Positions 39,183 through 42,776 of a DNA stretch of 64,000 bases are shown here, one piece after another; the stretch's first letter is position 1; each line of letters begins with the position of its first letter. The notes below the pieces were generated by a model. That model did no database searches. It had not been told where the DNA came from and saw only the letters and a program-made list of their open reading frames with translations. The translations under genes and the position numbers were made by a program. The stretch is from Dehalococcoidia bacterium (lineage in GTDB: Bacteria; Chloroflexota; Dehalococcoidia; Lucifugimonadales; Lucifugimonadaceae), in the NCBI GenBank assembly GCA_028285005.1, contig JANQQP010000015.1, positions 1 through 64,000 of the forward strand. Direction: 5' to 3'.

Positions 39183-40109
39183 TTGAGCGCTCATTTCACG
39201 GGCAAGAAGCTGCTCACGATCGTCGGCGCGACCGCCTCGGGCAAGAGCGCCGCTTCGATCCTTGTTGCTCAGCGGTTCCATGGCGAAGTCATTAACTGCG
39301 ATTCGAGACTGTTCTACCGAGGCCTCGAAATCGGGACCGCAATGCCATCTGAGCAGGAGCGCAGCGCTGTTCCGCATCACCTGGTCAGTTTCCTGTCTCC
39401 GACCGAAAGCTACAGCCTTGCCCAGTTCCTCGCCGACGCCAGGCGCACTGTGTTGGACCTACACGAACGCGGGACCCAGCCCGTACTTGTCGGAGGTACC
39501 GGGCAGTATGTGTGGGGATTGCTTGAAGGCTGGCAGGTGCCGGAAGTGCCGCCAAACCTCGAATTGCGAACGGAATTGGAGCATGAGCTGGAGGAGCGCG
39601 GAGTTGATGCTCTTTATGAACGTCTTGAGGCCCTGGACCCGCAGATCGCGGCCTCAGTCGATGCCAAGAACCACCGCCGCATCATACGAGCGATCGAGCG
39701 GATAGCCTCTGGCACGGCCCAGGATCACCGGGAAGCGATTGACCCTGGCTACGACTCCCTGCTGATCGGACTACATGTTGAACGGTCCGAGCTTCACCGG
39801 CGCATCGCGGAACGTATCGACCAGATGCTCGCAAGCGGGTGGCTCGACGAAGTTAACCGCCTCATTGACGACGGAATTGACTTCTCGCTGCCCGCTATGT
39901 CCGCAATCGGCTATCGCGAGCTGGCTGCGGTCATTCGTGGAGAGATCACCATCGGCGAGGCTCGCGAACGTACAATTCGAGCCACCAACCGGCTCGTTCG
40001 CCACCAGAACAACTGGTTTAAGCAATCCGACGGCCGCATCAACTGGGTTGATGTGACAGATGGCGACCTTTCGCGTGTGCTCGAACCGGTCGAGCATTGG
40101 CTCAAGTGA
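39183..40109 (+). CDS. miaA: tRNA dimethylallyltransferase MiaA
   Basis: Transfers dimethylallyl to A37 of tRNAs reading UNN codons. It is 308 aa. The P-loop is IVGATASGKSAAS, then NCDSRLFYRGLEIGTAMPS, HHLVSFLSPTESYSLAQF, LVGGTGQYVWGLLEG, and the NHRRIIRAIE segment. The TTG start is supported by AGGTGAGGG, 6-10 nt upstream. Position between tpiA and dapF suggests one transcription unit from the polyprenyl synthetase gene onward; its isoprenoid substrate links weakly to that gene. Confidence 0.95.
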   Translation: MSAHFTGKKLLTIVGATASGKSAASILVAQRFHGEVINCDSRLFYRGLEIGTAMPSEQERSAVPHHLVSFLSPTESYSLAQFLADARRTVLDLHERGTQPVLVGGTGQYVWGLLEGWQVPEVPPNLELRTELEHELEERGVDALYERLEALDPQIAASVDAKNHRRIIRAIERIASGTAQDHREAIDPGYDSLLIGLHVERSELHRRIAERIDQMLASGWLDEVNRLIDDGIDFSLPAMSAIGYRELAAVIRGEITIGEARERTIRATNRLVRHQNNWFKQSDGRINWVDVTDGDLSRVLEPVEHWLK

Positions 40110-40128
40110 TGCAGGATCAGGAGAAAAA

Positions 40129-41001
40129 ATGTCGATTCCGTTTGTGAAGCTCCAGGGAGCAGGCAACGACTACATAGCCATTGACGGCCGCGGACTAGAC
40201 CGCGACTGGGGGCAGCTTTCGCTCGATATGAGTAAGCCTGCGTTCGGTGTTGGCTCGGACGGAATTGTGCTCGTACAGGAGCCACAGCCGGAAGCGGCAT
40301 CTGCAGGCGCGCAGGTCCGCATGCGGGTCTACAACCCCGACGGCTCCGAGGCCGAGATGAGTGGCAACGGGATTCGGCTCTTCTCAAAGTTCGTTATCGA
40401 CCACAAGATTGCTACTCCCGGCGCAGATGGCCTCATAGTGGAGACCGGAGGCGGCGTCCGGACCGTCGTGCCGACCATGGATGGCGACCGAATGGTGTCC
40501 GCAAAGGTCGCGATGGGTGTTCCTGAGTTCGAACCAGCCCAGATTCCAGTTGATGCTTCAGTGCTGAACAGGGCCGACCGCGTCCACGACTTCCCGCTTG
40601 ATGTCGGAGGCCGAACCCTCAAAATCACCTGCGTAGCAGTCGGCAATCCGCACGCCGTTGCTTTTCCAGACGAGCCGGTCGAACAGTTCCCGCTGGTGGA
40701 ACTTGGAACGCTAGTCGAAAACCACTCGATGTTCCCGAACCGCATCAACTTCGAGGTGGTCAACGTGCTATCTCGTTCACGCATTCGGGCTCGCATATTC
40801 GAGCGCGGGGCAGGGGAGACGCTCTCGTCTGGCACCGGCAGCACTGCGTCTGCGACCGCAGCACGCGCCCAGGGTCTCGTCGATAACGAAGTGGACGTAG
40901 TTGTCGACGGTGGAGTGCTGAAGATCTCCTGGGACGAGACCGGTGAAGCGTTCCTGGAAGGTCCGGCTGTCGAGGTGTTCGAGGGAGTCTGGCCCGACTA
41001 G
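40129..41001 (+). CDS. DapF-like protein with both catalytic Cys replaced by Ser
   Basis: A 290-aa protein with the diaminopimelate epimerase fold: VKLQGAGNDYIAID, FGVGSDGIVLV, NPDGSEAEMSGNGIR, AVGNPHAVAF, NRINFEVV and ERGAGETLSSGTGS. DapF uses two Cys, in xCGNG and xCGTG/xCGSG. Here these are Ser78 (codon AGT) and Ser234 (codon TCT). Other active-site features (the Asn, Glu and Arg residues) look intact. The ATG at 40129 has GGAG upstream. dapL, which makes LL-DAP, lies nearby, so a DAP role is expected, but epimerase activity by the known mechanism is doubtful. It could be a variant or a changed function. Confidence 0.9.
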   Translation: MSIPFVKLQGAGNDYIAIDGRGLDRDWGQLSLDMSKPAFGVGSDGIVLVQEPQPEAASAGAQVRMRVYNPDGSEAEMSGNGIRLFSKFVIDHKIATPGADGLIVETGGGVRTVVPTMDGDRMVSAKVAMGVPEFEPAQIPVDASVLNRADRVHDFPLDVGGRTLKITCVAVGNPHAVAFPDEPVEQFPLVELGTLVENHSMFPNRINFEVVNVLSRSRIRARIFERGAGETLSSGTGSTASATAARAQGLVDNEVDVVVDGGVLKISWDETGEAFLEGPAVEVFEGVWPD

Positions 41002-41480
41002 TCGAGGCTCTCTAACAGCTCGATGCATTCCGAGATCTGAACCTCGCACAGCACCACCAGGTTGCCGACGATCGCATATGCGCCATAGCTCGTGCGAGTT
41101 GCGCTGATGCCACCGACCGCAAAGGGCGCGGGCTTGCCACGCCCTGTCGCCTCGTCCGCTGGCCCGGTGCCGTCTGCGACAGCGGACTCGTGTGACGGAT
41201 AGACACGGACCTCGACATCACGCTGGTTGTAGAAGCCGTACCAGGCGCTCTCTGCGTTCGGGAGAGTGTCGGCCGCAAGTTCCCGCGACTGTTTCCAGCC
41301 CGCTGCCACCAGCTGCTCGATCGTGAAGGTCTTCCCGGCGCTCAGGACAGGCACGGGCTCAAGGCCTTCATCGTCCGTAGAAGCTGCCGGCTCCTGACCG
41401 CTGTCGCCTGAGCCGCAGGCGATCACCGCCGCGCCGAGCAGCGGCAGGAAGAACATCAGCATGCGACGAACAGGCAGCAT
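40998..41480 (-). CDS. Predicted lipoprotein of unknown function
   Basis: About 160 aa from the ATG at 41480. The N-terminus LPVRRMLMFFLPLLGAAVIACGSG is a lipoprotein signal peptide with lipobox AVIAC. An acidic linker (EPAASTDDEG) and a folded domain follow, with FTIEQLVAAGWKQ and a Cys pair near the C-terminus (LCEVQISEC). The function is unknown. It is convergent with dapF, sharing CTAG at the stops. A TATAAT lies 9 nt upstream of the ATG, so the mRNA may be nearly leaderless. Confidence 0.72.
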   Translation of the reverse strand: MLPVRRMLMFFLPLLGAAVIACGSGDSGQEPAASTDDEGLEPVPVLSAGKTFTIEQLVAAGWKQSRELAADTLPNAESAWYGFYNQRDVEVRVYPSHESAVADGTGPADEATGRGKPAPFAVGGISATRTSYGAYAIVGNLVVLCEVQISECIELLESLD

Positions 41481-41489
41481 GATGCGGGG

Positions 41490-41495
41490 ATTATA
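41490..41495 (-). promoter_or_regulatory. TATAAT -10 element before the lipoprotein gene
   Basis: A consensus TATAAT on the minus strand ends 9 nt before the lipoprotein ATG at 41480. The -35 is not evident. It predicts transcription starting within a few bases of the start codon. Confidence 0.5.
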
Positions 41496-41612
41496 GGCCG
41501 GTCCGTCGTTTGAGGGTCTCGGTCGCCTTCTGGCAGCAGTTACACTATCCAGCCGCTCGCGCAATTGCCCTCACTCGTAAATCGACTAACCCAGTCCCGT
41601 CACGGAGCAAGA

Positions 41613-42776
41613 ATGAAATTCGCCAGAAGAGTTGAAGAGCTTCCCCCGTACCTGTTCGTCGGCATCTCTCGTGCCATTGCGGCCAAGAAAGCTGAGGGAA
41701 TCGATGTCATTTCGTTCGGCATCGGCGATCCAGACATCCCGACTCCAGACCCTGTGCTGAACCGGCTTCAAACTGCGCTCCGAACTCCTGCCCATCACAG
41801 GTATCCAGAATCTGAAGGACTCCCGGAATTCAGGCAAGAGGTTGCCGACTTTTACAGCCGAAGGTTCGGAGTCGAACTCGACCCGGAGACTGAGATCATC
41901 AACCTGATTGGCGCGAAGGAGGGCATCGCTCACGCTGCTCTCTGCTTCATCGACCCCGGAGACATCGCGCTGGTGCCGGACCCCGCTTATCCGGTTTACG
42001 AGATAGGCACGATGTTCGCGGGAGGCACAAGCCACTTCATTCCGCTAACTGCGGATAACGACTGGCTGCCGAGACTTGATGACATTCCGACCGATGTGGC
42101 CCGCAACGCGAAGGTCCTGTGGCTCAACTACCCGAACAACCCGACAGGCGCCACGGCCTCACTTGAGTTCTTCAACGAAGCGATCAAGTTCGCGAAAGAG
42201 TTCGACATCGCTCTGCTCCACGACGCCTGCTACACCGAGGTCACGTACGACGGTTATGTCGCACCATCGATCATGCAGGCCGAAGGCGCTCGCGACATCG
42301 CAATGGAGTTCCACAGCCTCTCGAAGACTGCGAACATGACCGGCTGGCGCGTAGGAATGGCGGTTGGCAATGCTGACATGGTCAACGCGCTGATGCGAGT
42401 AAAGTCCAATATCGACTCGGGCTCTTCGCAGGCTGTCCAAGAGATGGGCATGGAGGCTCTGAACCTGTCGCCGGACTGGATACACGAGAACAACGAGATC
42501 TATCGCCGCCGCCGTGACCGAGTGGTCGCCACGCTGAACGAGATCGGCATCGACGCCGTAGCTCCCAAGGCTGGACTCTACATCTGGGTGCCAATCCCAG
42601 AAGGGACTACCTCAGCCGAGTTTGCAGAAAAACTGCTCGAGGAGCGAAACGTGGTGGTAACGCCCGGCAATGGCTACGGGCCCGCCGGCGAAGGCTACAT
42701 CCGGCTATCGCTGACCATTCCTGACGAGCTGATCGACGAAGGAGTCAGCCGTCTTAGCGGCCTGAGACTCGGGTAA
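41613..42776 (+). CDS. dapL: LL-diaminopimelate aminotransferase-type enzyme
   Basis: A 387-aa PLP aminotransferase, fold type I. FARRVEELPPYLFVGISRAIAAKKAEGIDVISFGIGDPDIPTP is characteristic of DapL-type enzymes, which convert tetrahydrodipicolinate directly to LL-DAP. LNYPNNPTGA and the Schiff-base Lys in FHSLSKTANMTGWRVG are present. The ATG at 41613 has GGAG 5 nt upstream. The neighbouring dapF-like gene supports the lysine/DAP assignment; other class I aminotransferase substrates remain possible. Confidence 0.85.
   Translation: MKFARRVEELPPYLFVGISRAIAAKKAEGIDVISFGIGDPDIPTPDPVLNRLQTALRTPAHHRYPESEGLPEFRQEVADFYSRRFGVELDPETEIINLIGAKEGIAHAALCFIDPGDIALVPDPAYPVYEIGTMFAGGTSHFIPLTADNDWLPRLDDIPTDVARNAKVLWLNYPNNPTGATASLEFFNEAIKFAKEFDIALLHDACYTEVTYDGYVAPSIMQAEGARDIAMEFHSLSKTANMTGWRVGMAVGNADMVNALMRVKSNIDSGSSQAVQEMGMEALNLSPDWIHENNEIYRRRRDRVVATLNEIGIDAVAPKAGLYIWVPIPEGTTSAEFAEKLLEERNVVVTPGNGYGPAGEGYIRLSLTIPDELIDEGVSRLSGLRLG

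Follow-up and report, generated by a model that had tools for sequence, protein, structure and literature searches.

A clade-wide Ser/Ser active site in the sole DapF of SAR202 Dehalococcoidia

In the window analysed here, a stretch of 64,000 nt from a Dehalococcoidia bacterium, the gene dapF encodes a member of the diaminopimelate (DAP) epimerase family that carries serine at the positions of both catalytic cysteines. A thiol-thiolate pair is regarded as indispensable in enzymes of the DapF class, and Cys-to-Ser mutation is the standard way of inactivating them. The Ser/Ser pair is fixed in the clade to which the window belongs, the gene is single-copy, under selection and surrounded by pathway genes, and the binding residues and the fold are intact. 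We consider it likely that this protein is the cell's only DAP epimerase, converting LL-DAP to meso-DAP for lysine with a predicted serine acid/base pair in place of the two cysteines. The clade-wide occurrence of Ser/Ser in a sole, intact lysine-pathway DapF suggests the same job performed with a different acid/base pair.

The dapF gene (positions 40129..41001, forward strand), assigned by profile matches and an AlphaFold2 model, starts with ATG and codes for 290 amino acids; an AGGAG at 40119..40123 (+) is, as read from the sequence, its likely ribosome-binding site. The protein reached 225.8 bits with the DapF equivalog model TIGR00652 (cut-off 114.65) and 149 bits with PF01678 (cut-off 34.7). 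The latter was its sole Pfam match, the proline racemase profile giving none, and the score with NF038284 for bifunctional DapF/glutamate racemases (72.7 bits) stayed below the cut-off of 350. Aligned with solved DapFs, Ser78 (EMSGNG, codon AGT at 40360..40362, +) coincides with the first catalytic Cys (H. influenzae Cys73) and Ser234 (LSSGTGS, codon TCT at 40828..40830, +) with the second (Cys217); the reading frame, its coordinates and both serine codons had been given correctly in the first-pass annotation of this DNA. C168 is the sole remaining cysteine. The DAP-binding residues N13, D44, N69, N80, N173, N207, E225 and R226 are invariant across the window's family, bar one truncated sequence. 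The PROSITE PDOC01029 signature (as quoted in PMC8225329) is matched by none of the 33 family proteins, and by all 33 once its Cys is written as Ser. Of the defining features of the DapF family that were tested, the window protein lacks only the Cys pair.

A DapF match was found in 33 of the 37 genomes of the window's family, its own genome (87.7% complete) included, and all 33 proteins are Ser/Ser; the four genomes without a match are 56-74% complete. The same pair is present in 44 named loci from Dehalococcoidia and SAR202, which come from other assemblies, partly of the same genomes as the 33, and were fetched with peptide patterns that excluded both catalytic sites. Among these loci is that of Ca. 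Lucifugimonas marina JH1073 (L026), whose genome is complete. A sequencing or assembly error is ruled out, since dozens of independent assemblies are concordant. Site 78 is encoded by AGY in 80/80 cases and site 234 by TCN in 79/79, with all four third bases in use, from which we conclude that each replacement arose once in the family and has been retained since. Ser/Ser is kept within the family at identities down to 53%. Comparison of the window's dapF with five relatives gave dN/dS values of 0.04-0.07 (about 0.05), a sign of strong purifying selection, and the gene is retained even in family genomes of 1.3-1.4 Mb.

In a maximum-likelihood tree of 172 DapF proteins, calculated from an alignment that left out the two catalytic sites, the window's family forms a single clade (SH-aLRT 100) nested among Cys/Cys proteins. 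The supposition of the first-pass annotation that related Chloroflexota might share a Ser/Ser subgroup is borne out by this fully supported clade and by the 33/33 genomes. The other sampled families of the order and class contribute 88 Cys/Cys, nine Ser/Cys, four Cys/Ser and one Ser/Ser protein (L185), as well as one without a call at the first site; a further four proteins of family f49 are Cys/Ser. A second Ser/Ser clade unites Bacteroidota, Clostridium homopropionicum and L185, one of its members being Cys/Ser. Judged from the tree, Ser/Ser DapF evolved at least twice. The minimum number of changes is eight at the first site and three at the second, all of them between Cys and Ser; in the 172 rows both sites are confined to these two residues, with no Ala, Gly, Tyr or Arg. 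Were every single-base non-synonymous change of TGY tolerated, eleven changes would all involve Ser with a chance of about 1e-6, a rough figure in which each change is treated as a one-base step from Cys to Ser. On account of this low chance, we take the Cys-Ser exchange to reflect constraint rather than decay.

The closest relative outside the family (L085 in genome G049, same order, 52% identity) is Ser/Cys, with SGDG replacing SGNG. Its serine is encoded by TCC, as against AGY in the window's family, which points to a separate origin. In family f49, which belongs to the MurE-bearing Dehalococcoidia, a Cys/Ser DapF is fixed (8/8; L158, L163, L164, L166 and L264-L267); the locus has a G+C content of about 69% in one f49 genome. 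Family f49 is probably that of Tepidiforma, for which a cell-wall hydrolysate without detected DAP was reported despite DAP-type genes (PMC10284905), and the Cys/Ser DapF and the DAP absence may be linked.

Upstream of dapF lies miaA (39183..40109, +; TIGR00174, 232.1 bits), its neighbour throughout the family. Downstream, beyond a lipoprotein-like ORF of 188 aa on the reverse strand (40998..41564; no NCBIfam match), follows dapL (41565..42776, +) for LL-diaminopimelate aminotransferase, which makes LL-DAP (NF006756, 592.6 bits, cut-off 507; TIGR03540, 584 bits). The order miaA-dapF-dapL is conserved, with a same-strand dapL after dapF in 42 of 45 family loci; of the three exceptions, L053 ends inside dapF, and L028 and L032 are without dapL within their flanks. 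In G009, a DapL-like match elsewhere in the genome reached 330 bits only. With dapL adjoining, the connection to the DapL lysine route that had been drawn from the window by itself holds.

A search with PF01678 yielded exactly one DapF per genome in 40/40 genomes (two domain matches in one ORF), 19 of them from the window's family; a second, Cys/Cys DapF, for which the first-pass annotation had advised searching, was not found in these family genomes. DAP dehydrogenase, which would offer a bypass, was above cut-off in none of the 40. LysA is present in 40/40 genomes (one below the curated cut-off), the family LysA retaining the usual CESGD motif, and DapB was above cut-off in 27/27 genomes searched, which rules out a lost lysine route. 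The earlier proposal that meso-DAP is made elsewhere therefore finds no support: neither a second DapF nor a DAP dehydrogenase above cut-off was found in the 19 family genomes, and LysA and DapB are in place. The proposal of a binding protein fares no better, as dapF is conserved beside dapL and evolves under strong purifying selection.

MurE was above cut-off in 0/19 genomes of the window's family. SAR202 bacteria have been described as lacking peptidoglycan and the genes for it (PMC10444878; PMC11994032), and amino acid biosynthesis pathways were reported as complete in streamlined SAR202 (PMC11994032). Because of the missing MurE and the peptidoglycan-free SAR202, we propose that the DapF of this family serves lysine alone. 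DAP-type peptidoglycan is regarded as ancestral in the Dehalococcoidia (PMC10284905), and MurE was above cut-off in all ten genomes of families f35, f49, f67, f72 and f42 with a Ser/Cys, Cys/Ser or Ser/Ser DapF; the DAP-type motif EDPR was seen in 4/10 of the MurE sequences, by pattern only. In the MurE-bearing Dehalococcoidia such a variant is the sole DapF. Loss of peptidoglycan as the sole cause of the serine change was rejected, as Ser variants also occur in these MurE-bearing families, though the window's family is without MurE.

Bacteroidota possess peptidoglycan and require meso-DAP for it. Four draft genomes of this phylum (G174-G177) have a Ser/Ser protein as their single DapF and no DAP dehydrogenase above cut-off, and in three of the four dapL adjoins the Ser/Ser dapF (L051: TIGR03542, 639.9 bits versus a cut-off of 364.7). 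We take this sole Ser/Ser DapF as the strongest argument that such a protein can make meso-DAP. Clostridium carries its Ser/Ser protein in addition to a Cys/Cys DapF; in C. carboxidivorans P7 (L054; G173:C1:2465098-2465675) the Ser/Ser copy is broken by a TAG, the Cys/Cys DapF lying elsewhere in the genome. Oxidation resistance as a general driver of the exchange is a mere guess, strict anaerobes such as Clostridium sharing Ser/Ser.

The AlphaFold2 model of the window's DapF (mean pLDDT 92.3) predicts the DapF fold with two pseudo-symmetric domains, with TM scores of 0.83-0.88 to most solved DapF structures and far weaker matches to the proline racemase superfamily. Ser78 directly precedes helix 79-91 and Ser234 helix 235-247 in the model; in known DapFs, helix dipoles at these positions lower the pKa of the cysteines (PMC12039745). 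Several further residues vary together with the catalytic pair. The conserved third Cys, at +6 from the first catalytic site, is replaced by Leu84 (40378..40380, +): this position is Leu in 33/33 proteins of the window's family and Ile in 9/9 other Ser/Ser proteins, as against Cys in 114/116 Cys/Cys, 9/9 Ser/Cys and 4/5 Cys/Ser proteins. Counted as independent pairs, two of three agree with this association and none opposes it, too few for significance. Trp224 (Trp in 104/116 Cys/Cys proteins) has become Phe in the family (Phe224, 40798..40800, +). Position 238, which is Ala in 102/116 Cys/Cys proteins, is Ser, Thr or Cys in the family, and in the window Ser238 (40840..40842, +) places an additional hydroxyl beside Ser234. 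Outside the family it is Gly237 that has changed to Ser, in 14/14 proteins with Ser234 and 0/125 with Cys234. The +3 Ser found in Ser234 proteins outside SAR202 brings to mind those proline racemase relatives whose catalytic Ser is held by the residue three positions on (PMC4113996).

We infer from these features that the protein is catalytically active, that its serines act as bases, and that they are tuned by the change of Cys84 to Leu and by extra hydroxyls near Ser234. LL-DAP would be supplied by the adjacent DapL and bound as in other DapFs, with Ser78 and Ser234 predicted to flank the DAP site from its two faces, each at the N-terminus of one of the two central helices. With activation from the helix N-terminus and nearby groups, one serine would take the alpha proton, and the other would return a proton from the opposite face; meso-DAP would then pass to LysA to yield lysine in an organism without peptidoglycan. 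A precedent for serine as acid/base is the Ser93/Cys 4-hydroxyproline 2-epimerase (PMC4113996). The first-pass annotation had held that, within the proline racemase fold, a change from Cys to Ser or Thr signals a different reaction; this is true in part, but the Ser/Cys member is a genuine 4-hydroxyproline 2-epimerase (PMC4113996). Its idea of different chemistry likely stands in the sense of another acid/base pair, whereas a different reaction is not indicated.

Mutational data speak against serine catalysis: point mutations from Cys to Ser leave M. tuberculosis DapF and PddB with < 0.1% activity (PMC8225329), the activity of HisR C67S and C209S is greatly reduced (PMC11602996), and C. glutamicum DapF loses nearly all activity when Cys is changed to Ala (PMC5296763). 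The natural proteins would then either hold compensating changes or run slowly. A literature search found no natural Ser/Ser DapF that had been assayed or described, most subscription journals being outside its reach. It is conceivable, if rather unlikely, that Ser/Ser is a far slower epimerase than Cys/Cys and is tolerated in slow-growing SAR202 without peptidoglycan, where little meso-DAP is needed. The trace activity of the mutants (PMC8225329) and a DAP demand for lysine only (0/19 family genomes with MurE; PMC10444878, PMC11994032) would fit such an enzyme, but four genomes of the peptidoglycan-bearing Bacteroidota likewise have no DapF other than a Ser/Ser one, and MurE-bearing Dehalococcoidia have a Ser/Cys, Cys/Ser or Ser/Ser protein as their only DapF. 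Moreover, strong purifying selection together with the co-varying residues suggests tuning, not mere tolerance.

A change of reaction or substrate, turning the protein into another racemase, epimerase or dehydratase or into a DAP-binding protein, would require meso-DAP or lysine to be made by another way, e.g. by a LysA taking LL-DAP or by an unknown racemase. DapF-like racemases for histidine (PMC11602996) and for O-ureidoserine do exist, and in the proline racemase superfamily the enzymes with a Ser/Thr pair act as dehydratases (PMC4113996). We nevertheless judge it improbable in view of the adjoining dapL, the complete set of DAP-binding residues, the status as sole DapF and a LysA with its usual CESGD, all the more as neither an alternative DAP epimerase nor a DAP dehydrogenase was found in the genomes searched. 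Loss of both catalytic cysteines is also the classical sign of a dead enzyme, and the protein could be the relic of one (a pseudoenzyme) in lysine-scavenging cells. With dN/dS near 0.05, cysteine replaced by serine only, dapF kept even in the 1.3-1.4 Mb genomes and the downstream LysA kept in all, there is very little to be said for this. An active epimerase with a serine pair is the reading we prefer.

SAR202 bacteria are abundant in the dark ocean, and whole lineages, SAR202 among them, have Ser/Ser as their only DapF. We would expect such enzymes to be insensitive to thiol-directed and aziridine inhibitors of DapF and to the oxidative disulfide switch described for the C. glutamicum enzyme (PMC5296763). 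These genomes would be misread by annotation rules that score Ser variants as inactive and by predictors of the lysine pathway that require the Cys signature.

Compared with the Cys/Cys DapFs of Anabaena (9mro), Arabidopsis (3ejx) and H. influenzae (1gqz), the window's protein agrees in fold, length, DAP-binding residues and place in the DapL-LysA route, with 30-38% identity to solved structures. It differs by Ser for both catalytic Cys, Leu for the third conserved Cys and Phe for Trp224, its PROSITE signature failing at the Cys only. The H. influenzae mutants C73S and C217S (2q9h, 2q9j) carry the identical replacements, hand-made and one at a time, in an unchanged fold; unlike the natural Ser/Ser proteins they are without the co-varying changes, and their catalysis is hindered (PMC12039745). 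The Ser/Cys 4-hydroxyproline 2-epimerase B9JQV3 and the Ser/Thr 3-hydroxyproline dehydratase B9K4G4 share the fold class and use the first-site Ser as acid/base (PMC4113996), but belong to another branch of the superfamily and act on other substrates, the epimerase B9JQV3 retaining one Cys. The Ser/Ser DapFs of Bacteroidota and Clostridium (L047, L049-L052) likewise have both sites as Ser, an aliphatic residue 84 and, in three genomes, an adjoining dapL. They form a separate clade of separate origin at 36-42% identity, carry Ser at +3 from the second Ser, and include one relative that is still Cys/Ser.
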